Assembly: GCF_000347635.1 (NCBI RefSeq)
Contig: NC_020514.1
Location: 4,402,001-4,466,000, forward strand
Direction: 5' to 3'
Length of the DNA: 64,000 nt
From: Paraglaciecola psychrophila 170
GTDB lineage: Bacteria > Pseudomonadota > Gammaproteobacteria > Enterobacterales > Alteromonadaceae
In this document: piece by piece, positions 8,922 to 43,159 of the stretch
How positions within the stretch are numbered: position 1 is the stretch's first letter
How the letters are laid out: every line of letters starts with the position of its first letter
Notes under the pieces: model-generated
The model's database searches: none
Told to the model about the DNA's origin: nothing
The model's input: the letters and a program-made list of their open reading frames with translations, nothing else
Position numbers and translations under genes: made by a program

Positions 8922-9908
8922 CTACCATAACTTCATCAAGGCGTTGGAGTAATGCATCTTTCGCTGATTATCGACAATGATAGCATCATATCCCGGCGTA
9001 CGATTTAGCAAGTCCATGCCTTTTTGCACACCCAAAACAAACACTGCGGTAGATAGGGCATCGTTTAACGTACTGCGCTGACCAATAATCGATACACTTT
9101 GCACTGCATTAGCAGAAGTACCTGTTTGTGGAGATAGGATATGGTGAAAGCGTTTTCCGTCTTGTTCGAAATAACGCTCGTAATCGCCTGAAGTCGATAA
9201 CCCAGTATCAGCCAAAGGTAACACCACAGCCTGTTTAACTTTATTACGGGGATCTCGAATCCCCACCATCCAAGGCTTGCCTAACCTGTCACCTAACAGT
9301 CTCGTATCGCCGCCTGCGGTCACTAAGGCATATTTAATCCCACGTTGTTTCAATATACCGATAGAGTTGTCTACTGCATGACCTTTAGCAATTCCCCCTA
9401 AGTCAATTTTCACATTGGGATGGGCGAAGAAAATACTGTATTCATCCACGTTAAACTTGATGTGCCGGTAATTAATGGCCTGTAACAAGTTATCAATTTG
9501 GCCTTGCTTTGGCTTCTGATTTTCACGATAGTTATACAAATAACCGACGCTAGCAAAAGTAATATCAAATGCCCCATCTGTCTCCTTAGCCAATTCAACA
9601 GATAAAGAAATCAGCTCAAATAACTCTTTTGATACGGGCACTGCGGATATAGAGCCACGGCTATTAAGCTGACTCAACTCACTGCTTTCAATATACGGAC
9701 TCATTAATTGATTAATACGCTGCATTTCGGCCATTACCGCTTGAGTGGCATCTTTACCTTGCTGCACAGACTCACTCCAAAGTTCGACGTGAATATTGGT
9801 GCCCATGATCCCTTGGTTGTCTTCAAACCACTTTGCATATGAAAGCCCTGAATAAGCCATCATACACAGCAACAATACTGGCGAGGCTAGGATGCCCTGC
9901 ATCTTCAT
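8922..9908 (-). CDS. apbE: FAD:protein FMN transferase ApbE
   Basis: ApbE transfers FMN from FAD to a threonine of flavoproteins such as the Na+-translocating NADH:quinone reductase subunits, outside the cytoplasmic membrane. A signal peptide ending LSYA (about residue 25) is followed by GIMGTNIHVELW, a central DLGGIAKGHAVD and VTAGGDTRLLG, and a final SVSIIGQRSTLNDALSTAVFVLG. These segments are typical of ApbE. There is no lipobox cysteine, so it is probably a soluble periplasmic form. Its ATG overlaps the rsmI stop as ATGA, which implies translational coupling. Confidence 0.9.
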   Translation of the reverse strand: MKMQGILASPVLLLCMMAYSGLSYAKWFEDNQGIMGTNIHVELWSESVQQGKDATQAVMAEMQRINQLMSPYIESSELSQLNSRGSISAVPVSKELFELISLSVELAKETDGAFDITFASVGYLYNYRENQKPKQGQIDNLLQAINYRHIKFNVDEYSIFFAHPNVKIDLGGIAKGHAVDNSIGILKQRGIKYALVTAGGDTRLLGDRLGKPWMVGIRDPRNKVKQAVVLPLADTGLSTSGDYERYFEQDGKRFHHILSPQTGTSANAVQSVSIIGQRSTLNDALSTAVFVLGVQKGMDLLNRTPGYDAIIVDNQRKMHYSNALMKLW

Positions 9909-24765: not shown

Positions 24766-24816
24766 AAAGCACCATAATGTAAATGATAACGATTATCATT
24801 TACATTATGGTGCTTT
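24766..24816. promoter_or_regulatory. 51-bp perfect palindrome containing a Fur box
   Basis: Arms of 24 bases (24766-24789 and 24793-24816) are exact inverted copies around CGA. The core AAATGATAACGATTATCATT at 24781 is a near-consensus Fur box. A TTGACA -35 at 24752 with CATAAT at 24773 makes a plausible promoter overlapped by the operator. The right arm ends directly before the first ATG of the FagA-like gene. Confidence 0.85.
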
Positions 24817-25233
24817 ATGCCTTTAGTTTACTGCTTTACTTTCTCCGCTGTTGAAATGTCTGTACGTTATGGTGATGGCGACTGCAATACCCACGACGGA
24901 GACATCATAAGTTGCTACGTGCATATGGGATTAGAGCGTGCCAAAAACCACACCTGCATAGCGGCTGTAAAACATGCGCACATGCGCGTTATCAATACCT
25001 TAATCGATGCCATGTGCGATCTCTGTCTTTCAAACGTTTGGCGTAAACAATGTTATCGCTATATAAAACGGTTCCTGCCGCTACTGTACGAAATGTTGAA
25101 CCCTCAACAATACCAGCAAAAAGTACAAGAAATTCAAACCTTACACGCTTATTACTTTGAAGATAATCGGAGTAAATATCAGTCCACTAGCATTAAACAA
25201 TCCCGTCAGCTTAGTGTCAAAAAACGACCTTGA
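24817..25233 (+). CDS. FagA-like small protein (copy 1), Fur-regulated
   Basis: I recognise no enzyme motif. The core (VKHAHMRVINTLIDAMCDLCLSNVWRKQCYRYIKRFLPLLYEM) aligns by eye with the small protein at 36378: LIDxMCDxCLxxxWRKQC against IVDESIEVHWREFC, then PL-L. That copy lies before fumC, as fagA does in the Pseudomonas iron-starvation operon fagA-fumC-orfX-sodA, hence the name. It is mainly helical and cytoplasmic. The start is uncertain: the first ATG abuts the palindrome and has no good ribosome binding site, and ATGs at 24856 and 24925 are alternatives. Confidence 0.55.
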   Translation: MPLVYCFTFSAVEMSVRYGDGDCNTHDGDIISCYVHMGLERAKNHTCIAAVKHAHMRVINTLIDAMCDLCLSNVWRKQCYRYIKRFLPLLYEMLNPQQYQQKVQEIQTLHAYYFEDNRSKYQSTSIKQSRQLSVKKRP

Positions 25234-33917: not shown

Positions 33918-35018
33918 ATGACCATTAACCGCAGACAATTTATGCTAGGAGCAAGCCAAGCGGCATTAGCTGCTTGGTTTCTGCCCGCCTGCACTGCTCA
34001 AAAGTCTGAACAATGGTTAGTCAGCACATGTAACGATCAACAAGGTCAAAATATGGCTGCAGCGATTAACAGTCAAGGACAGATTGTTAGTACAGTCAAT
34101 CTCCCCGCTCGTGGCCATGACTCATTAGCATTGCCACACAAACCCGGACACGCATTGGTATTTGCTCGTCGACCTGATCGCTTTGCCATAGAAGTCGACT
34201 TTATCAACGGCGAGATAGTCAGCCACATTCAAAGTCAAGCTGATAGCCATTTTTATGGACATGGTGCATTCTCAAAAGATAATAAATATCTCTACACTAC
34301 CGAAAATTTGTATGACAAAAAACGTGGCTTGATTGTGGTGCGAGATGCACAAACATACCAAGTCTTAGACAGATTTGATTCCGGTGGCATTGGCCCACAC
34401 GAGTTAATGTTGATGCCTGATGGCAACACATTAGTGATAGCCAACGGTGGCATTGAAACCCACCCTAGCCAACCACGAAAAAAACTGAATATTGAAACCA
34501 TGCAACCAAACTTGGCCTATTTAGATATAGCAACAGGCAAAATATTGTCTAGCTTCGCCCCTCCGGATCACCAGTTAAGTATTAGGCACTTAACCGTTAA
34601 TCCTAACGGTGCCGTCTATGCCGGTGCCCAGTACCAAGGTAGAAAATCAACGATTCACCCCTTGGTCTTTGCCCATCACGGTGAAGACAACTTGCAAGCC
34701 TTCAGGGCCTCACAGACCCAGTGGTTCAAGATGCAACAATACACCGCCAGTCTTTTAGTTAAAGATGACTTACTTTGTGTTAGTTGCCCAAGAGGCTCTC
34801 ACCTTAGTTTTTGGGATACCGCAACTCGAGAATTTATTGGCCAACAAGCCTTTAGCGATGTATCAGGTTTAGCTTACTCAAATGGCAATTTGTTAGCGTC
34901 TAGCGGCAAAGGTTTACTCAAGAAACTAAACCACGCAAACCCCATAACCGGACCTGCGAGTACTAGCTCATTAGCGCTGAAGTTTGATAATCATATGACG
35001 ATGATTGCTGCGGGTTAA
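33918..35018 (+). CDS. DUF1513 protein, Tat-exported
   Basis: NRRQFMLGASQAALAAWF is a twin-arginine signal, and the following C (LPACTAQ) may be lipidated. The body is a beta-propeller-like DUF1513 domain (RGHDSLALP, FYGHGAFSKDNKYLYTTEN, GIGPHELMLMPDG, SIRHLTVNPNG). DUF1513 genes commonly accompany imelysin and DUF1111 genes. It is the last gene of this operon. The function is unknown; a folded cofactor would fit Tat export but none can be seen. Confidence 0.82.
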   Translation: MTINRRQFMLGASQAALAAWFLPACTAQKSEQWLVSTCNDQQGQNMAAAINSQGQIVSTVNLPARGHDSLALPHKPGHALVFARRPDRFAIEVDFINGEIVSHIQSQADSHFYGHGAFSKDNKYLYTTENLYDKKRGLIVVRDAQTYQVLDRFDSGGIGPHELMLMPDGNTLVIANGGIETHPSQPRKKLNIETMQPNLAYLDIATGKILSSFAPPDHQLSIRHLTVNPNGAVYAGAQYQGRKSTIHPLVFAHHGEDNLQAFRASQTQWFKMQQYTASLLVKDDLLCVSCPRGSHLSFWDTATREFIGQQAFSDVSGLAYSNGNLLASSGKGLLKKLNHANPITGPASTSSLALKFDNHMTMIAAG

Positions 35019-35447
35019 ATTGTTAGCGATAAAAAGGGAATATTGTAGTTTTTAAATGTTAAGACTTAACCCAACAATTTTTCATAACTAATCACACCAA
35101 TACTATTTACCTTAATAAATCATTGATTATTAAGTTCTTTCTAACTAATTTAACGATGGATGGGAGTGTCAAATTTGTTAAAAGAAGGGTAAGCAGATAA
35201 TTCCAAAGGAATACAAATCTGGATCTACCAAAGGGGTAAGGAGGACTAGGAGGTAAAACCTCAGCTTTGCTGATTGGAGAAATCAACTACTCTGTTTCCG
35301 CATTTTTCAATGCGTTTCATCTTAACGAAAAAAGTTTGCTTAAAAATCATATTAATTAAGCAACCTGCCTCACGAGCTTTTGAACCCGAGCCTTTTAATT
35401 CCTAGATTGATATATTTAAAATGAATAGCGTGGGCATTACATGCGAA
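35019..35447. other. Long gap before the HugZ-like gene
   Basis: No intact gene is found. On the minus strand around 35150-35403 there is an open stretch starting like ELKGSGSKAREAG. It faintly recalls the end of an IS256-type transposase but is too short to name. An AGGAGG-like string at 35238-35251 leads nowhere. Confidence 0.3.
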
Positions 35448-35462
35448 TGCGAATCATTGTTA
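35448..35462. promoter_or_regulatory. Fur-box-like site before the HugZ-like gene
   Basis: TGCGAATCATTGTTA agrees at 10 of 14 positions with the 7-1-7 Fur motif TGATAAT-N-ATTATCA. It lies about 90 bases before the ATG. Confidence 0.5.
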
Positions 35463-35548
35463 ATTGCAAATACAAATGATACAGTCTCTATAGATATTCC
35501 CTCACGCTAATCATTATCTCACTATGTGCAAGATTTAAAGGTAATCAC

Positions 35549-36334
35549 ATGAGTAATAAAAGTTACCACATTCATCAAGCCGCTTTACTTATGCGAAGCC
35601 AGCACACCGCGGTTTTATCGACGCATAGTGTATCTATGCAGGGCTATCCTTTTGGCTCTGTTATGCCGTTTTTAATGACGGAAGAAGGCAACTTAGTTGT
35701 CTACGCGTCTGATATTGCGCAACATTCTCGTAATATGAAAAAACACAATAAAGTCAGTTTATGTATTTATGATGGCAGACAAAGTGATAGCCAAGCAAGC
35801 GCGCGCATCACTGTTTTAGGTAATGCTGAGGTAGACACTGTTGACGACCCATTACAGGACCAATACATGGCGATTTTTCCGCAGGCGAAATCCTATGTGC
35901 AGGCCCATGATTTTCGTTTTTACTTAATTAGTACCGAGCGCGTGCGCTATATAGGTGGGTTCGGTGAAATTTACTGGTTTAGCCTAGACGATTGGCAAAG
36001 TCATATGTTTAGCTTGGCTAAAAGTGCGCAGGGTGCCATTGAACATATGCACCAAGACCATAGCGATGCATTAGCGTTAATTGTTGCGCAGCAGTTAAAA
36101 CGACCAATAAAACAAGGGCAAGTCACAATGCTTTCTTGTTATCAACATGGTTTCCATTACTCGTGCACAACAGATTCAGCAAGTGGCGAAGTGACTTCGC
36201 ATATTGGCTTTATTTGTTTTAAGCAGCCGATTACCAAAGATCACGGCCTGCGCCACGCAATGGTTTTGTTGACCCAAGAAGCGAAAAAAAGCGTCGAAGC
36301 TCAGCAGCGACAAAATCAAAACGATCAGCAATAA
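35549..36334 (+). CDS. HugZ-family haem-utilisation protein
   Basis: The N-terminal half is a PNPOx-like split barrel (AALLMRSQHTAVLSTHSVSMQGYPFGSVMPF). The C-terminal DUF2470 domain has IEHMHQDHSDALALI. This two-domain form is found in HugZ-type haem oxygenases that release iron from haem, and in related haem or flavin proteins. At 261 residues it fits. It is preceded by a Fur-like box and followed by the FagA-like and fumC genes, so an iron-limitation role is likely. Actual haem degradation is inferred. The stretch looks slightly richer in GC than the flanks. Confidence 0.75.
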   Translation: MSNKSYHIHQAALLMRSQHTAVLSTHSVSMQGYPFGSVMPFLMTEEGNLVVYASDIAQHSRNMKKHNKVSLCIYDGRQSDSQASARITVLGNAEVDTVDDPLQDQYMAIFPQAKSYVQAHDFRFYLISTERVRYIGGFGEIYWFSLDDWQSHMFSLAKSAQGAIEHMHQDHSDALALIVAQQLKRPIKQGQVTMLSCYQHGFHYSCTTDSASGEVTSHIGFICFKQPITKDHGLRHAMVLLTQEAKKSVEAQQRQNQNDQQ

Positions 36335-36377
36335 AACGTAATATTCGCGAGCAAGCGACGATTATGAGGAAAACAGC

Positions 36378-36749
36378 ATGCACAGATATCCACAGAATCG
36401 CCCAAACCTATTGAGTCCTCGCCGTCCTCTAGATATTATTGAAACCCGTATTCGTAGGGGGATAGAGCACAACAATCCGCCGCTGGTTAATATTTATCTT
36501 TTGCAAATTGCAGACTTAGCGTCAGCCAAAACAACCTCAACTGCTAAATTTGTTATTGCAAAAAGGGCGTTTCAACTACTTTACGACACCATTGTCGATG
36601 AATCGATTGAAGTGCATTGGCGCGAGTTTTGTCTAGACAAAATTAATCTACCCTTGCAGTTGATGAAAAAAAGTGGCGACAGCCCTAAACTCAAGCAGCA
36701 GTGCCGCCTTATGCAATACAAATTGACATTGCTATGTCAAAAAAATTAA
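36378..36749 (+). CDS. FagA-like small protein (copy 2), upstream of fumC
   Basis: A 123-residue basic helical protein with no named domain. It occupies the position of Pseudomonas fagA (Fur-associated gene A) directly before fumC, and shares the W-R-x-x-C segment (VHWREFCLDKINLPLQLM) with the protein at 24817. GAGGAAA lies about 7 bases before the ATG. It may be an iron-starvation accessory protein; the activity is unknown. Confidence 0.6.
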   Translation: MHRYPQNRPNLLSPRRPLDIIETRIRRGIEHNNPPLVNIYLLQIADLASAKTTSTAKFVIAKRAFQLLYDTIVDESIEVHWREFCLDKINLPLQLMKKSGDSPKLKQQCRLMQYKLTLLCQKN

Positions 36750-36783
36750 TGAAATTAACGCTAAAAATAGTAGGGTCAATAAC

Positions 36784-38211
36784 ATGAATACCAATATTAA
36801 GGCTGAGACTAGCGATAAGCTCAAAGCTCACCAAAGCCGCATTGAAAAAGACAGTATGGGATCGCTTGAGGTACCTATTGATGCGCTTTATGGCGCACAA
36901 ACTCAACGCGCTATCAATAATTTTACGGTGAGTGATCTTACTCTGCCTGAAAACTTTATTCGTGCCCTATTGAGCATTAAGCAAAGCGCGGCTTGCACCA
37001 ATGTTAAACTGGCACTTATTCCTCAAGATGTGGGTGAAGCGATAAGCATTGCGGCCAACAAATTGTTGGCGACACCTGATTTAATGTCGCATTTTCCGGT
37101 CGACGTTTTTCAAACTGGCTCGGGTACCAGCACCAATATGAACGCCAATGAAGTGCTGTGTAAACTTGCTAATCAAATGGCTGGTTTGTCGTGCGAGGTG
37201 AGTCCTAACGACCACGTGAATTTTGGCCAAAGCAGCAATGACGTCATTCCTAGCTGCATCCACGTTAGTGCCGCTATTGCTATACATCAACAGTTACTGC
37301 CTGCGCTCGTCAGTACAGTAGAGATAATTAAACACAAAGCGAAATCACTGGACGGCATCTGTAAAACAGGCAGAACTCACTTAATGGATGCCATGCCCAT
37401 TAGGATGGATCAAATGTTAGGCGGTTGGGCGGCCCAGTTGTCTCAGCAAATACTTGTATTGCAACATTTACAACCTAGCTTAACGCAACTCGCGATAGGT
37501 GGCACAGCGGTTGGCACAGGCATTAATACACATCCAAAGTTTGCGCAAATAGTGTGCGATGATTTAAGCGAAAAGACCGGCCTAGCGTTTCGGCCAAACC
37601 CAAACTATTTTGCGGCGATGGGTTCGCAAGATATTGCGGTGAATGTGTCTGGCGCTTTAAAGACAATTGCCGTAGCGCTCATGAAAATATCAAATGATCT
37701 AAGGTGGATGAATTCTGGCCCACTTGCCGGCTTAGGCGAAATAGCGCTGCCGGCATTGCAACCCGGTTCTTCTATTATGCCAGGTAAGGTCAATCCTGTT
37801 GTGCCGGAGTCGGTTGCTATGGCGGCGGCACAGGTAATCGGCAATGATGTAGCCATCAGTATTGGCGGGCAGTCAGGTAACTTTGAACTCAATGTTATGC
37901 TTCCTATGATTGCGCATAACTTGTTGTCGAGCATTGACTTAATGAGCAACAGTTTGATTATGCTGGCAGAAAAAGCGATACAAGGCTTTAGTATCAATCA
38001 AGCTAATTTGGATAAAGCACTCGATAAAAACCCCATTTTAGTGACCGCGCTTAACCCAATCATCGGCTACGCGAAAGCGGCTGACATTGCTAAAAGAGCT
38101 TATAAAGAAAGTCGTCCCATTGTCGACGTTGCACAACAAATGACGGATATTTCACGCGACGAGTTACTCATTCTTCTTAAACCATTAACCCTCACCAAGG
38201 GAGGACTCTAA
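36784..38211 (+). CDS. fumC: Class II fumarase FumC (iron-independent)
   Basis: Fumarase C interconverts fumarate and malate without an iron-sulfur cluster. It therefore replaces FumA/B under iron limitation or oxidative stress. Hallmarks are TGSGTSTNMNANEV, NFGQSSNDVIPS, GRTHLMDAMPIRM with the catalytic His region, and the superfamily signature GSSIMPGKVNP. The length of 475 residues is slightly more than the usual 463, from an N-terminal extension of about 20 residues (MNTNIKAETSDKLKAHQSR). It follows the FagA-like gene by 34 bases, presumably in the same Fur-controlled unit as the HugZ-like gene. Confidence 0.95.
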   Translation: MNTNIKAETSDKLKAHQSRIEKDSMGSLEVPIDALYGAQTQRAINNFTVSDLTLPENFIRALLSIKQSAACTNVKLALIPQDVGEAISIAANKLLATPDLMSHFPVDVFQTGSGTSTNMNANEVLCKLANQMAGLSCEVSPNDHVNFGQSSNDVIPSCIHVSAAIAIHQQLLPALVSTVEIIKHKAKSLDGICKTGRTHLMDAMPIRMDQMLGGWAAQLSQQILVLQHLQPSLTQLAIGGTAVGTGINTHPKFAQIVCDDLSEKTGLAFRPNPNYFAAMGSQDIAVNVSGALKTIAVALMKISNDLRWMNSGPLAGLGEIALPALQPGSSIMPGKVNPVVPESVAMAAAQVIGNDVAISIGGQSGNFELNVMLPMIAHNLLSSIDLMSNSLIMLAEKAIQGFSINQANLDKALDKNPILVTALNPIIGYAKAADIAKRAYKESRPIVDVAQQMTDISRDELLILLKPLTLTKGGL

Positions 38212-38454
38212 TATGCTCCTTATCTTATCGCCATGAATTTACTGGTGCGTGGCAGCACGAAACTAACGTTTCAAGTTAACTAATAATTTTCATGCCATTC
38301 TTTGCAAAGCACACACCATTGTTGACAGTGAAAAATACGATTCACACAAGGGTAAGCACCAAATAGAAGCAATGCTGATAGCGTTTATTAAGCTGTCAAA
38401 CTACGTTTTTTAGGCACCATAAAAGGCTATTTACAAGGGTTAACAAGATACTAC

Positions 38455-38754
38455 TTAACGTTTGTTTGCAATTTTCAGGAGCACTAGTCCAGCAATATTT
38501 TTTTGGGTTACAAAACCCAATTCCTGACTGCTCGTGCTTTGAGGGTTGTCGCCGACTAACCAATAACTTCGATTATCGCTAATCTGTTGGATACATTTGA
38601 TGCGTTTAATAATGGTCTGGTACTTAGGGTGATTGACGACGACCACCTGACTTTCTGTGAATCTAAAAAGTGGCCAGGTTAAGCACAATACATAGTCACC
38701 TTGATAAAAAGTGGGTGTCATACTGGCACCCACTACTTTATAAAATCGTAACAT
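38455..38754 (-). CDS. sodX: SodX, nickel-superoxide-dismutase maturation protease (S26 signal-peptidase family)
   Basis: A 99-residue S26-type serine peptidase. The catalytic Ser11 is in GASMTP and the Lys50 in TIIKRIK, followed by the GDNPQSTSSQELGFV box. It lacks an N-terminal membrane anchor, as do the small SodX proteases that cut the leader from pro-SodN to expose His1. It follows sodN by 42 bases. Its start region is a triplicated 16-bp repeat, each copy with an ATG; only the last ATG (38754) opens the full frame. Confidence 0.88.
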   Translation of the reverse strand: MLRFYKVVGASMTPTFYQGDYVLCLTWPLFRFTESQVVVVNHPKYQTIIKRIKCIQQISDNRSYWLVGDNPQSTSSQELGFVTQKNIAGLVLLKIANKR

Positions 38755-38789
38755 TATAAAATCGTAACATTATAAAATCGCAACATTGG
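38739..38789 (-). repeat. Three tandem 16-bp repeats, each carrying a start codon
   Basis: On the minus strand AATGTTACGATTTTAT occurs three times (the first with G in place of A), placing ATGs at 38786, 38770 and 38754. The first two open 10-codon mini-frames that stop at TAA, and the third is sodX. The repeat fills most of the sodN-sodX gap. Confidence 0.9.
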
Positions 38790-38796
38790 TAGCTAT

Positions 38797-39303
38797 CTAA
38801 TGTTGGCTAAGCCTTGGATACACTACCTTTTCGCTGGGTGGATACGGACATGTTGCCGTGTAGGTCGACAAATTCTTACTGCGCCAAAAACTATCTGCAA
38901 ATTCATTCACTAAGCTTAGCAACTGCTCTGCCTTGTCACGCACAATATGTTGTTTACACGCTGATGCAGTTAACATAATTTCATGCACTAAAGAATGTGT
39001 ATTGGGAAACTGCTCTAATTGTGGTGCCTTAAAATAGTCTCCCCAAATCACCCGGATCTCTTCTTTAACGTTATTAGCATGCATTTCTTTTTCTCGCGTT
39101 AAGCGGCTTAGCTGTGAATATTCGGCGGCCGTAAGCTGCGGTTTATCACTTAATTCTGTTATCAGGTCTATAAAGCGCAGCACACTTAAGCAAGATACCT
39201 GCGCTACAATAGGATCATAAATTTTGCACGGAATATCGCAGTGCGCTGCCGCCGAGGCTATTCCAAATTTATTGTCGAATGCGTGAATTAAGCCAGCAAT
39301 CAT
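38797..39303 (-). CDS. sodN: Nickel-containing superoxide dismutase (SodN)
   Basis: SodN disproportionates superoxide with a nickel ion instead of iron or manganese. A 20-residue leader ends SAAA. It is followed by the nickel-hook HCDIPCKIYDP (residues 21-31), in which His1, Cys2 and Cys6 of the mature protein are ligands. The helical body has EKEMHANNVKEEIRVIWGDYFKAPQLEQFPNTH, matching the Streptomyces enzyme's LAKHHVSVLWSDYFKPPH region. The C terminus is longer than usual by about 20 residues (from TYTATCPYP). The ATG overlaps the stop of the preceding small gene. Confidence 0.93.
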   Translation of the reverse strand: MIAGLIHAFDNKFGIASAAAHCDIPCKIYDPIVAQVSCLSVLRFIDLITELSDKPQLTAAEYSQLSRLTREKEMHANNVKEEIRVIWGDYFKAPQLEQFPNTHSLVHEIMLTASACKQHIVRDKAEQLLSLVNEFADSFWRSKNLSTYTATCPYPPSEKVVYPRLSQH

Positions 39304-39521
39304 ATATGTTCCTTATTGGTGTTATTGCGTTTTTTAATCATTACTTTTGTTAGCAGAAATACGCCGGTGCTAAGTAGTGCAAATAGCGACACATAATAGG
39401 CTGTATGTAAAAAATCGCTGCTCCAATGGCTGTGCTCATGGCCAGGGTGAGAGAACGAATAAAAACTAGGGCTTAGTAGCAGGGTAAATATTACACATTG
39501 GATAATAGGTTTCATGGTCAT
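39300..39521 (-). CDS. Small His-rich membrane protein in the sodN operon
   Basis: A 73-residue protein. The signal-like helix ends FYSFS, then the mature N terminus reads HPGHEHSHW, then one transmembrane helix (about 42-60) and a basic tail. The HPGHEH motif resembles the start of HupE/UreJ nickel transporters, but the rest of that transporter is absent. Overlap with sodN (4 bases) implies co-translation. It may bind nickel in the periplasm or help a permease; this is inference. No family name is known to me. Confidence 0.65.
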   Translation of the reverse strand: MTMKPIIQCVIFTLLLSPSFYSFSHPGHEHSHWSSDFLHTAYYVSLFALLSTGVFLLTKVMIKKRNNTNKEHI

Positions 39522-39564
39522 TCCTTATTGTGGTTAAATAAACGGTAAAGTCTTCAAACAGAGA

Positions 39565-40014
39565 TTAATTTGACTGCTTCGTGGTTAAACTGTTGAGTTG
39601 ACATGGATGTTTTAGTGAAAGGCTATCGTGATGCAGATGTCTAAATTGGAGTAAGGCAAAATTGGCTTTGCTCTTACCCCGTCTTAATGCTTCTTTTTGC
39701 TCCTCAGATTGCTCGTTGAGCAATAGGGCATTAATAATGTTGTAGGCTTTAGTTAACTCGTTCTCACTTAAGGCATGTTCATTTTGTTGGGTATATAATT
39801 CAGCTAAGTTATGAAAGCTAGCGAGTAGTGCAGCAACCGCTGCTTTTCCTGAATTGAGCATATTGATAAGCATAATCGCTTCGCAAATCGCGATTTCATA
39901 ATGCTCAATAGAATCCATAATTTGATTTTTTTCGAAATATGAATTACCTGCTAAAGTATGGTATTTCCAAGACATAAAATGCGGGTCTTGGTTAATATTT
40001 TTATCCTGTTGCAT
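39565..40014 (-). CDS. Helical-repeat (TPR-like) small protein, copy 2
   Basis: An all-helical protein with SYFEKNQIMDSIEHYEIAICEAIML and SFHNLAELYTQQNEHALSENELTKAYNIINALL, a two-repeat tetratricopeptide pattern similar to the protein at 25261. The ATG at 40014 has GGAGAG 7 bases upstream; an earlier in-frame ATG (40041) adds nine unlikely residues. It leads the minus-strand unit with the His-rich protein, sodN and sodX, and may match the orfX position of Pseudomonas fumC-sodA operons. Function unknown. Confidence 0.6.
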   Translation of the reverse strand: MQQDKNINQDPHFMSWKYHTLAGNSYFEKNQIMDSIEHYEIAICEAIMLINMLNSGKAAVAALLASFHNLAELYTQQNEHALSENELTKAYNIINALLLNEQSEEQKEALRRGKSKANFALLQFRHLHHDSLSLKHPCQLNSLTTKQSN

Positions 40015-40261
40015 GCAATCTCTCCAGTAACAAAACAGCACAAATTAACTATGAATATAATAACGTAAATTATTTTGCCTCAAAGCACCTTCGCAGGAAA
40101 ATAGAGACGGTTACTGTAATGCTCGAAGCGTTATTCAAAATTTGTTTAAGCCACGTTGCCGTGCCAGGTATATTCCAATTTAAGTTCAAGTATGGGGGTA
40201 TGTAGAAGTCATATTATGATAGTCGACACAGTAGAATTTATAGTTCTGCCATGTCGTCTGC

Positions 40262-40714
40262 CTACTCAGCTATCGTGAATGTACCTTTCATCATTGCAAA
40301 ATGTCCTACAAAAGAACAAAAGAAAGTGTAGTCACCACCTACCTTCAGATCACTAAGATTGAATGAAACACTGTCACTTTCGCCTCCTCCAATAATTTTT
40401 GTATTGGCGATGACTCTAATGTCGGCAGGTTTCAAATATTGATTTTCAAGTCCAGCGCTCCATCCTTCTTGTGCTGCCCCTTGAGCATTTTCGGTGGCAG
40501 AAAGCACCCAGTTATGGCCCATCGCATTTCGAGGAAGTGAGCCTGTGTGGGTTAAATTAATCGTCACTGTTTTGCAGACTGCTGCAGACACTGTCAGTGC
40601 TGCAGGAACAAAATTCATATTGTCACCTACTTGAACTTCAATGTTGCAAGAGTTTGCATATACGTCAGAGGAAATGAGTGTTATTAGCAAACATCCATAA
40701 TATAAAAATTTCAT
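40262..40714 (-). CDS. azu: Azurin (blue copper protein)
   Basis: A periplasmic type 1 copper electron carrier. The signal peptide ends VYA. The mature protein has the azurin disulfide cysteines (CNIEVQVGD, VCKTVT) and the copper ligands in GHNWVLS (His46) and FFCSFVGHFAMMKGT (Cys112, His117, Met121). MGHNWVLS and DYLKPDD-like YLKPAD are azurin-specific. A Fur-like box lies directly upstream, suggesting copper replaces iron cytochromes when iron is short. It stands alone. Confidence 0.95.
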   Translation of the reverse strand: MKFLYYGCLLITLISSDVYANSCNIEVQVGDNMNFVPAALTVSAAVCKTVTINLTHTGSLPRNAMGHNWVLSATENAQGAAQEGWSAGLENQYLKPADIRVIANTKIIGGGESDSVSFNLSDLKVGGDYTFFCSFVGHFAMMKGTFTIAE

Positions 40715-40759
40715 ATTTTTACCCTTTATAAAAATTCATGATGACATTAAAATCCACTA

Positions 40760-40790
40760 AATGCAAATGATAACAATTACTATTTGCATT
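40760..40790. promoter_or_regulatory. Fur box upstream of azurin
   Basis: AATGCAAAT and ATTTGCATT are perfect outer arms around a 13-base core that fits 11 of 14 Fur positions. It lies about 45 bases before the azurin start. Confidence 0.6.
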
Positions 40791-40984
40791 GAGTTTTATT
40801 TGTTTTTCGTTTCAAAATAGAGCGGAATAAGCGTTTATTTGCGTAATAAAATGTACCTTATGTCATCAAATTGTTCGCCCAAAAATAAGATCTACACACA
40901 TCAAATTTAATAACAAATATGCGATAAAAAATCGGACTATATTCACATACAGCCCGTTGCTTAATATCGTCTATCTTTATGTGC

Positions 40985-43159
40985 TTAAAACGTCATTTTT
41001 ACAGCCAACCCGATCATTCTAGGTGAAGCCAAAGGCGCATAGAAATTACCATCATCTCCAAATAGAAAGTTCTGGTATGCCTGTCCCGCTGCATATCGTT
41101 GGTTACTTATATTTTCCACATTTATTGACACTGACCATTTATCTGTTTCATAGCCTGCTGACAGCCCACCAATATATTGCATATCTCTGACCGCAGTTCC
41201 TTCTGGATTAAGTGGCGTTTTTCCGATTGCTTGCAAGTCTGCTTGCACATACCAATGGTCTGTGAATCGGTAAATCAGGCCTAGATAGGCATCAAATTTC
41301 GGTATTAAGTAGACACTATTACCTTTCAGGTTTTGAGTAGAAGTAAATGGATAATCCTTGTACTGGGCATCGGTGTAACCAAACCCTAAATTAATGGAGA
41401 GCTTTTTAGTCAGATATCCAGACAGTTCAGCCTCCAAACCTTGGCTTTTTATTGCTGCATCTGAGCTAATCAGATTGGTTGATAAAACTCGACCTTCAGC
41501 ATCGGTTAAAATACGATTCTCCTGCCAAGTGTTAGCATCGATATAAAATGCCGCGACAGAAAAGAATAATTTGTTCTGGAATAGATACCCTTTGCTGCCT
41601 ATTTCGTAAGACCAGAGTTGCTCTTTGTCATAACTGCCAAATTCATTTGCAATGTCAGCGCCATTACCAGCTACAACTAGGTTGTAATTGCCAGGTAGGT
41701 AACCTTTGGTCATTGTGGTGTAAACACTCAGCTCATTATCAAATACATAACTTAGAGAGAATTTAGGAATAAGAGTTTTATCCTGCTCACTTTGTGCGAC
41801 TTCAGGAAAACCAAACACACCGAGTGCGCCCAAATCCAGTTCGCCTGCATCTTGCTCAATCTCACGTGATGCTAATTCGTGGCGAAGACCAAACGTCATG
41901 TTAAGTTGATCCGTCAGAGGATAAATAACCTGTCCGAAAATTGCGGTGTCTTTTGCGTCAAAGCGTTGTTCTGGAGCGGGAGAAAAGTCATCGATGTTAC
42001 CAGGTCCTATTAATGTCGATAATTTACGTGTTCGTTTTTGATAGAGGTAATTAAGGCCAATTACCCATTGAACCACTTCATCATCTGCACTGTTAAAACG
42101 TGTTTCTAGGTTCCAAAAAGTATCTTTTAACTGAGTCCCCCCTGCACTAAAAGCGGCCGCAGTGAGGTCTAAATCAGTACCATAAGATTCATCGTCTCTA
42201 TTACGATAGCTGCTCACCACATGAAAAACGCCGGCATCATAATCTTTTTCTAACGCTAACCCTAACGCCCACTCTTTTGAATTGGTTTGTTTGGGCGCAT
42301 CGTTGGCAATTTCAAAATCACCTACTGTCAGCCCTGCATTAAAAGACTCAGCATACAGTGCGTTATAAGCGTCGATATCCAAGGGGGCAAACTCTTGTTC
42401 ATAAAGACCTGGGGCATCAATTTCGTTATAAATACCTATCATATTCAGTTGTGTATCATCGTTAAATTGATAACGAAGTCTGGTACTTAGGGCTAAATCA
42501 TTAATTTCTCCCTGTTCATCAATAGAGCTAGCGATATTTTTCACATAGCTATCACCATGTTCATATTGAAAATTAAATATGCTGCTTAAATTGGTATTCA
42601 GATTAGCGTAAATATTACCATTTACTTCTTCAGTGCTGCGTCCTTCAAAAGCCTTTAGTTTTAACCCTATCTGCCCACCTTCTTCACCATCAGGCGCTTG
42701 TGAGTTAATAATAATAATTCCGGCATTAACATTAGCGCCGTATAAGGTACTTTGCGGGCCACGTAAAATTTCAATTTGTTCGATATTATTAAGTTGTATC
42801 GTGCCAGGATCACGAAATGGAATACCGTCTACATAAACCGCCACTCGGTTAACGACGAACGGGTTAGATTGAATACCTCGAATAGAAATCGATGTTGGGC
42901 CCACCTGACCAATTTGATTGACCGAGACGTTAGGTGCAACTTTACTTATATCCCTGAGATCTTCAATATTAGCCCTTTTGATGAGTTCACGACTCAATAC
43001 AGTGACCGAATTAGGCGTTTCAAGGATAGTTTGTTTGAGCTTAAAACCATTCACGACAATTTTTTCAATACTCTGTTCTTGGCTTTCAAGGTCAGAAGAC
43101 TGAGCGAGGCTGCTTAGGCTTATAGTGGTGCTGACTAATATAAGTGCTGTTTTGAACAT
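40985..43159 (-). CDS. TonB-dependent siderophore receptor (FyuA-like)
   Basis: A 724-residue outer-membrane receptor. A signal peptide ends SLAQ. The TonB box region reads EKIVVNG, the plug has IEDLRDISKVAPNVSVNQIG and ILRGPQSTLYGANVNAG, and the barrel ends AVKMTF. The plug resembles pesticin/yersiniabactin-type receptors. The neighbouring PchR-like AraC regulator supports a siderophore ligand. A Fur box and a heptanucleotide repeat lie upstream. Confidence 0.88.
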   Translation of the reverse strand: MFKTALILVSTTISLSSLAQSSDLESQEQSIEKIVVNGFKLKQTILETPNSVTVLSRELIKRANIEDLRDISKVAPNVSVNQIGQVGPTSISIRGIQSNPFVVNRVAVYVDGIPFRDPGTIQLNNIEQIEILRGPQSTLYGANVNAGIIIINSQAPDGEEGGQIGLKLKAFEGRSTEEVNGNIYANLNTNLSSIFNFQYEHGDSYVKNIASSIDEQGEINDLALSTRLRYQFNDDTQLNMIGIYNEIDAPGLYEQEFAPLDIDAYNALYAESFNAGLTVGDFEIANDAPKQTNSKEWALGLALEKDYDAGVFHVVSSYRNRDDESYGTDLDLTAAAFSAGGTQLKDTFWNLETRFNSADDEVVQWVIGLNYLYQKRTRKLSTLIGPGNIDDFSPAPEQRFDAKDTAIFGQVIYPLTDQLNMTFGLRHELASREIEQDAGELDLGALGVFGFPEVAQSEQDKTLIPKFSLSYVFDNELSVYTTMTKGYLPGNYNLVVAGNGADIANEFGSYDKEQLWSYEIGSKGYLFQNKLFFSVAAFYIDANTWQENRILTDAEGRVLSTNLISSDAAIKSQGLEAELSGYLTKKLSINLGFGYTDAQYKDYPFTSTQNLKGNSVYLIPKFDAYLGLIYRFTDHWYVQADLQAIGKTPLNPEGTAVRDMQYIGGLSAGYETDKWSVSINVENISNQRYAAGQAYQNFLFGDDGNFYAPLASPRMIGLAVKMTF

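Follow-up and report, generated by a model that had tools for sequence, protein, structure and literature searches.

A locus in Paraglaciecola psychrophila 170 that joins fumC to nickel superoxide dismutase: a probable iron-sparing block with a candidate nickel-supply protein

The genome of Paraglaciecola psychrophila 170, a single contig of 5.41 Mb (NC_020514.1), carries a block of genes that combines an iron-free class II fumarase (fumC) with a nickel superoxide dismutase (NiSOD, encoded by sodN). The window analyzed here, a stretch of 64,000 nucleotides (contig positions 4,402,001 to 4,466,000), holds this block at 35443-40787: a HugZ-like gene, fagA and fumC lie on the plus strand, and azurin, orfX, a gene for a histidine-rich mini protein (here called HisTM), sodN and the maturation protease gene sodX lie on the minus strand (Table 1). 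All of these are open frames at the expected positions, and the genes and convergent layout described in a first-pass annotation of this DNA were recovered together with their domains. The block is set in a wider iron island, with genes for an imelysin, a di-haem oxidoreductase (DHOR), a TonB receptor and a DUF1513 protein before it, and is followed by genes encoding another TonB receptor, a regulator of the AraC type and a protein of Fe2+ transport. By SodN, the closest named locus (L090, 98% identity) comes from a metagenome-assembled genome (MAG) of an uncultured Paraglaciecola.

SodN of the window scores 166.7 bits against TIGR02753 (cut-off 90), also matches PF09055, and is the sole PF09055 match in the whole genome. 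Its sequence HCDIPCKIYDP, which follows 20 residues, fits the nickel hook HCxxPCxxYxP behind a cleavable leader, and the hook is invariant across the 11 sequences of alignment A1, I28 excepted; for the roles of the hook residues we assume what is generally held. The window SodX has its best match in TIGR02754, at 52.4 bits and under the cut-off of 63.25, and is called SodX-like because its gene sits after sodN. The reading frames of HisTM and sodN share 4 bases. For the orfX product, the AlphaFold model shows five helices (pLDDT 90.4), and the best PDB matches of a fold search were TPR proteins, at only E 0.018 or worse. Against DUF2753 (PF10952, cut-off 28.7 bits) the window protein scores 23.2 bits, and its relatives in L084 (36.4 bits) and L067 (30.2 bits) pass; a newer Pfam version of DUF2753 is precomputed on 45 of 45 listed orfX relatives, one of them 95% identical to the window protein. 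The FagA-like protein gave no Pfam or NCBIfam match at E 0.05, its AlphaFold model is all-helical (pLDDT 88.8), and the best match of a fold search reached only E 0.16; the gene is putatively assigned as fagA from our own alignment and one UniRef name. A second FagA-like gene (24817-25233) directly follows strong Fur-like boxes (24779-24803) and heads a set of TPR-imelysin-DHOR genes.

Table 1. Features of the block, in window coordinates.
Feature	Position	Strand	Basis or remark
Weak Fur-like box upstream of HugZ-like gene	35443-35461		11.3 bits
HugZ-like split-barrel protein	35549-36334	+	CREG/PNPOx barrel and DUF2470
fagA-like gene	36378-36749	+	Residues invariant in FagA alignment; relative P0167 has UniRef name 'FagA protein'
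fumC, iron-free class II fumarase	36784-38211	+	Lyase_1, FumaraseC_C
sodX-like NiSOD maturation protease	38455-38754	-	TIGR02754; place after sodN
sodN, NiSOD precursor with 20-residue leader	38797-39303	-	TIGR02753, PF09055
Nickel hook HCDIPCKIYDP	39211-39243	-	Alignment A1
HisTM: signal peptide, His-rich mature N terminus, one membrane span	39300-39521	-	
HisTM motif H1-P-G-H4-E-H6-S-H8...H15	39405-39449	-	
orfX, TPR-like, DUF2753-related	39565-40014	-	Frame open from GTG 40041
TTTACGTTA, single copy in window	40061-40069	-	Two copies in L050/L051
Azurin, possible first gene of sodN transcript	40262-40714	-	TIGR02695 162 bits, cut-off 105.1
Two overlapping Fur-like boxes upstream of azurin	40763-40787		13.1 and 13.0 bits

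The arrangement was followed across 108 loci. A search of 196 family genomes gave 28 Sod_Ni matches, spread over 27 genomes, of which one is the window; to these were added the 80 best-ranking of 374 named loci. These gave 101 distinct SodN proteins, of which 93 have an exact HCDIPC and 8 without it were left out; setting aside 17 loci without 5 kb on both sides, among them L131 with fumC 1.3 kb away, leaves 76. In 12 of these 76 distinct NiSOD loci, fumC lies at most 5 kb from sodN, vs. a chance expectation of about 0.9% per locus (P about 4e-12, on the assumptions that a 4.5 Mb genome has two fumC and that the loci are independent, the latter not holding for related genomes), and chance adjacency was rejected on these figures. 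The order is head to tail, fagA-fumC-orfX-sodN-sodX, in L067, L109, L120, and L124, with HisTM only in L067, and fagA-fumC-HisTM-sodN-sodX in L128. It is convergent in the window, L090 and L110, the window and L090 being near-identical relatives. In L118 and L131 sodX is followed by fagA-fumC, and in L095, L113, and L132 fumC is near sodN. One genome (L056/L091) has the order imelysin-DHOR-TonB-DUF1513-TPR-fagA-HisTM-sodN-sodX, without fumC. The sodN units share their hook, leader and adjacent S26-type protease with the known sodN-sodX pair, but differ from a bare pair in that orfX precedes sodN in 74 and HisTM in 79 of the 93 hook-bearing loci; sodX follows in 92, and all three are found in 64. 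The rule behind the count of 79 missed L098 (overlapping HisTM) and L149 (a fusion). Hence, fagA-fumC and orfX-HisTM-sodN-sodX are two modules found recurrently at one locus, either head to tail or convergent.

In Pseudomonas, fagA-fumC-orfX-sodA is an iron-responsive operon with a manganese superoxide dismutase (Mn-SOD) and a putative Fur motif (PMC3377617). Like that operon, the P. psychrophila block combines fagA and fumC with a gene at the orfX position and, beyond it, a superoxide dismutase (SOD). Unlike it, the block has NiSOD with the protease gene sodX, and HisTM and azurin are added; moreover, the Pseudomonas operon is a single transcript, whereas P. psychrophila has two convergent units and the head-to-tail order is seen in L067, L109, L120, and L124. 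Pseudomonas orfX and the window TPR protein are likened by their slot after fumC alone. The first-pass annotation had NiSOD filling the slot of the manganese enzyme. As a statement about position this stands, with four collinear and three convergent loci in which sodN-sodX occupy the place that sodA has in Pseudomonas; no case of one enzyme literally replacing the other within these lineages was observed. A search for a locus of the Pseudomonas type gave FagA matches in 7 of 369 genomes of the class and in 1 of 48 and 5 of 109 genomes of two orders, and none of the eight loci then inspected carried an Fe/Mn SOD at E 1e-8. Furthermore, 21 of 22 genus genomes keep one PF02777 (Fe/Mn) SOD. That of P. 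psychrophila, the only one in its genome, lies 0.8 Mb from the block beside a glutaredoxin-like gene, and its residues suggest the Fe type. Besides a single class I fumarase, there is a second fumC (C1:2719136-2720443; L194 4142-5437) with three stops near the 5′ end, which leaves the FumC of the block as the sole intact class II fumarase that the search of this genome recovered; in several congeners, no stop is reported in the counterparts of this second fumC.

We consider it probable that the block serves to spare iron by swapping metals. Under iron shortage, iron-free FumC would back up the Fe-S fumarase and NiSOD would back up the Fe-SOD, SodX trimming the SodN leader so that His1 would be free to bind nickel. 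Copper azurin possibly replaces a haem carrier. Azurin was found at eight mapped loci (the window, L050, L051, L089, L090, L095, L125, and L131) and also at L229, at all of them within about 5 kb of fagA, fumC or sodN, a placement that would fit a copper-for-iron swap. In Alteromonas macleodii under iron limitation, fumC (MASE_14985) is 20-fold up and NiSOD (MASE_02360) is also up (PMC7190382); the two locus tags are distant there, whereas P. psychrophila has them at one shared locus. Iron induction of FumC and NiSOD in Alteromonas and an iron-responsive Mn operon in Pseudomonas were thus already known, and the shared locus is the newer element. Among the open-licence papers listed, none was found by title or abstract start to describe the shared fumC-NiSOD locus, HisTM or a sodN-sodX pair headed by orfX and HisTM.

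HisTM has 81 members at the hook-bearing loci, 80 of them with the motif; H1 and H6 are present in all 80, and H4 and H15 in 79 each. By a simple hydropathy rule, H1 is preceded by a signal-peptidase-like site and followed by a hydrophobic span in 80 of 80. In all 24 sampled family genomes whose NiSOD has the hook, HisTM adjoins sodN. A HisTM profile gave 37 matches at E 1e-6 in the 196 family genomes, 24 of them beside sodN, a linkage count that is partly circular since the profile was built from sodN-linked members. With at most 30 candidates scored per genome, 59 of the 196 genomes had a match at E 0.01, the weak ones probably by chance. Twelve of the other 13 matches were inspected (all except that of G193). 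HisTM lies beside a decayed sodN at five loci (L208-L211 and L213), after orfX without sodN in L214, beside azurin without sodN in L212, and, in L215, flanked by genes for a TPR-type protein and a TonB receptor. In L216-L219, a HisTM relative directly follows a ureG-like gene, with Pfam confirming ureG in L216 and ureC in L217 and the others recognized by like sequence; in these forms beside urease genes, H1, H4, and H15 are conserved and their spacing is unchanged. Additionally, one MAG contig (CALIUX010000251.1; L149, 3942-4619) has signal peptide, His-rich stretch, span, linker and SodN in one frame, the His stretch of this fusion having H1, H6, and H8, with H4 absent. The window HisTM gave no match to DUF6732 (PF20506) at E 1; four of six HisTM relatives match it at 15.6-26.4 bits (cut-off 27) and two do not. 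PF20506 is precomputed on 3 of 120 listed HisTM relatives, and HupE is the source name of 2 of the 120. DUF6732 was not mentioned in the open-licence full texts searched.

The mini protein was present as first annotated, and a link to nickel had not been drawn. We tentatively suggest that HisTM is an unnamed nickel-supply factor of NiSOD, namely a minimal inner-membrane protein with a His1-x-x-His4-x-His6...His15 site facing the periplasm, which would act together with SodN on the cytoplasmic membrane side, with SodX releasing the enzyme there. It probably binds nickel at the periplasmic face through its His1-rich mature N terminus and so helps supply NiSOD; a sister form would serve urease, and the whole could be the missing nickel-delivery step of gammaproteobacterial NiSOD, under Fur control. 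Anglerases are mature N-terminal-His metal-capture domains fused to HupE/UreJ-2 permeases, and one of the two anglerase domains was found starting from a NiSOD signal peptide (PMC12537917). HisTM resembles them in having a secreted part and a mature N-terminal His for metal capture at the membrane; unlike them it is only a short peptide and a single span, lacking both a permease and a domain that folds separately, and homology is not claimed. HisTM may be a minimal functional counterpart of such domains.

Histidine-rich motifs bind several metals, and HisTM could be a copper, zinc or general envelope metal binder rather than a nickel protein, which we hold to be rather unlikely. Azurin is adjacent in the window and HisTM stands beside azurin without sodN in L212, but its links lead to two different nickel enzymes, NiSOD and urease, and it is absent at three family loci with a hookless sodN (L050, L051, and L076), yet kept at the five loci with a decayed sodN and at L214, which has none. 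The locus L076 encodes a full-length SodN-like protein without the hook. At L208-L211 (genus g13), which have the order orfX-HisTM-sodX, sodN is a short frame of about 56-63 residues with a NiSOD leader and a VSA cleavage site but no hook, and sodX is highly conserved beside it; such shrunken frames could be another SodX substrate, or decay. In L213 sodN is also reduced, being truncated.

Iron control, as the first-pass annotation had it, finds support for NiSOD units in general, both in the Alteromonas transcriptome (PMC7190382) and in their promoters. A Fur-like site with at least 14 of 19 matches lies within 410 bp before 36 of 74 orfX-headed NiSOD units vs. 115 of 1304 control promoters (odds ratio 9.8, Fisher P about 3e-17); only the general 19-bp Fur consensus was used, and the controls are promoters of the same loci and may include iron genes. 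Fur-like boxes were also found at 22 of 31 fagA units (not deduplicated). With a weight matrix trained on relatives' sites (training-site median 17.7 bits), the 64-kb window has 19 positions of at least 11 bits vs. 1.6 expected, overlapping offsets of one site being counted separately. The Fur-like box that had been annotated before the HugZ-like gene is there but weak at 11.3 bits; a second site (35500-35518) reaches 8.0 bits, and the matching region of L090 at most 5.1 bits. The sodN unit of the window has no Fur box upstream (best 11 of 19 matches), in agreement with the same annotation. A site with 15 of 19 matches at 39859-39877 was left out of the box count, being internal to orfX. The Fur-like pair before azurin, the next gene upstream, is kept in L090 (13.3 and 13.2 bits) and in L050 and L051 (11.8 and 10.1 bits). 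With the box missing at the sodN unit and the pair kept, iron control of the window sodN unit, if any, may come via azurin, the two possibly being co-transcribed. A promoter scan of 35000-41000 gave 8 sites vs. 16.5 in shuffles, and 6 terminator-like sites vs. 5.0, and was not used as evidence.

The sodN unit might alternatively have been acquired separately, be constitutive or nickel-controlled, and merely be located in an iron island. In Streptomyces, sodN is under nickel control via Nur (PMC3919588), and NiSOD is present in only 3 of the 22 genus genomes (P. psychrophila, G207, and G200); however, in all three of them fumC faces sodN within 4 kb with fagA behind it. In P. marina D3211 (L113), fumC and sodN are separated by genes for a TPR-type protein, a response regulator and a likely sensor kinase. 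G207 also has a second Sod_Ni copy with five internal stops (G207:C40:27348-27725, L192). Several findings weigh against an iron-sparing block with HisTM as its nickel supplier, beginning with the boxless sodN unit of the window itself. L090 has a best Fur match of 12 of 19 at both units, 38 of the 74 orfX-headed units are without a box of 14 matches, and an inverted repeat 3′ of azurin, clearest in L090 and without a T run, leaves read-through from azurin into orfX unproven. Moreover, 64 of the 76 loci have no fumC inside 5 kb, and HisTM was not found at 12 of the 93 hook-bearing loci, including L109, L120, and L124. At four loci from Pseudoteredinibacter and a Cellvibrionaceae MAG (L136, L141, L146, and L147), the partner of HisTM-sodN-sodX is not fumC but a SodB-like gene of the Fe/Mn SOD family (about 8954-9535), which diverges from it about 200 bp off. 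FagA matches occur in 20 of the 196 family genomes (E 0.01), and among the nine that also have a hook-bearing sodN the two are linked in three (G000, G033, and G065) and apart in six (G001, G032, G035, G153, G189, and G191), those of G032 being on different contigs. Conservation of gene order, offered earlier as a check, is thus partial: 12 of the 76 loci have fumC and sodN no more than 5 kb from each other, and the units are apart in 6 of the 9 family genomes with both. Given the facing fumC in the genus, the enrichment of Fur boxes at NiSOD units and the rise of Alteromonas NiSOD under iron limitation (PMC7190382), a separately acquired unit seems to us improbable.

The metal-swap block would have lost, in the window lineage, the Fur box of its sodN unit. 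In L050 and L051 (genus g3) orfX is immediately preceded by a palindromic Fur box, which is flanked by two copies of the 9-bp repeat TTTACGTTA 102-103 bp apart, whereas the window and L090 have one copy and the intervening segment is absent. The simplest reading is that a deletion between direct repeats removed the box in the window/L090 lineage, which would explain its absence at the window sodN unit, the direction of the change being our inference. The sodN unit may now be driven from the promoter of azurin with its Fur boxes or be expressed constitutively. Insertion of the palindrome at the g3 loci, for which the 9-bp duplication around the segment could be a target-site duplication, seems improbable: the segment ends have no inverted repeat of at least 9 bases (the Fur palindrome and one unrelated pair being all that was found), and 36 of 74 orfX-headed units in relatives have a Fur-like box upstream, including that of P. 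marina L113 (14 of 19). The Fur box of L050 (10685-10757) and L051 (9030-9110) lies within a long imperfect palindrome with arms of 36-40 nt (83%).

The same two loci have lost fumC, sodX, HisTM and the second half of sodN and retain HugZ, fagA, orfX and azurin; in their hook remnant His1 is lost, and Tyr9 too. The HugZ-like gene had been counted in the set as an extra haem-release gene, a proposal that fell away: its product reaches 45.9 of 225 and 41.3 of 240 bits against the HutZ/HugZ cut-offs, and was rejected as a core member on these scores and on the internal deletion of the gene in L090, the nearest relative. Because of that deletion it is taken as a passenger, incidental to the conserved set. 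In L050, it follows FecCD permease and ABC ATPase genes, a context that fits iron or haem uptake.

The P. psychrophila block would be expected to respond to iron. In several marine gammaproteobacteria, the fumarase that spares iron and the nickel SOD are placed at one recurrent locus, and NiSOD units are linked to Fur. To our knowledge, how NiSOD receives its nickel is an open question. HisTM is a concrete candidate for this supply, and the HisTM-SodN fusion together with the urease link makes the nickel-supply idea directly testable.

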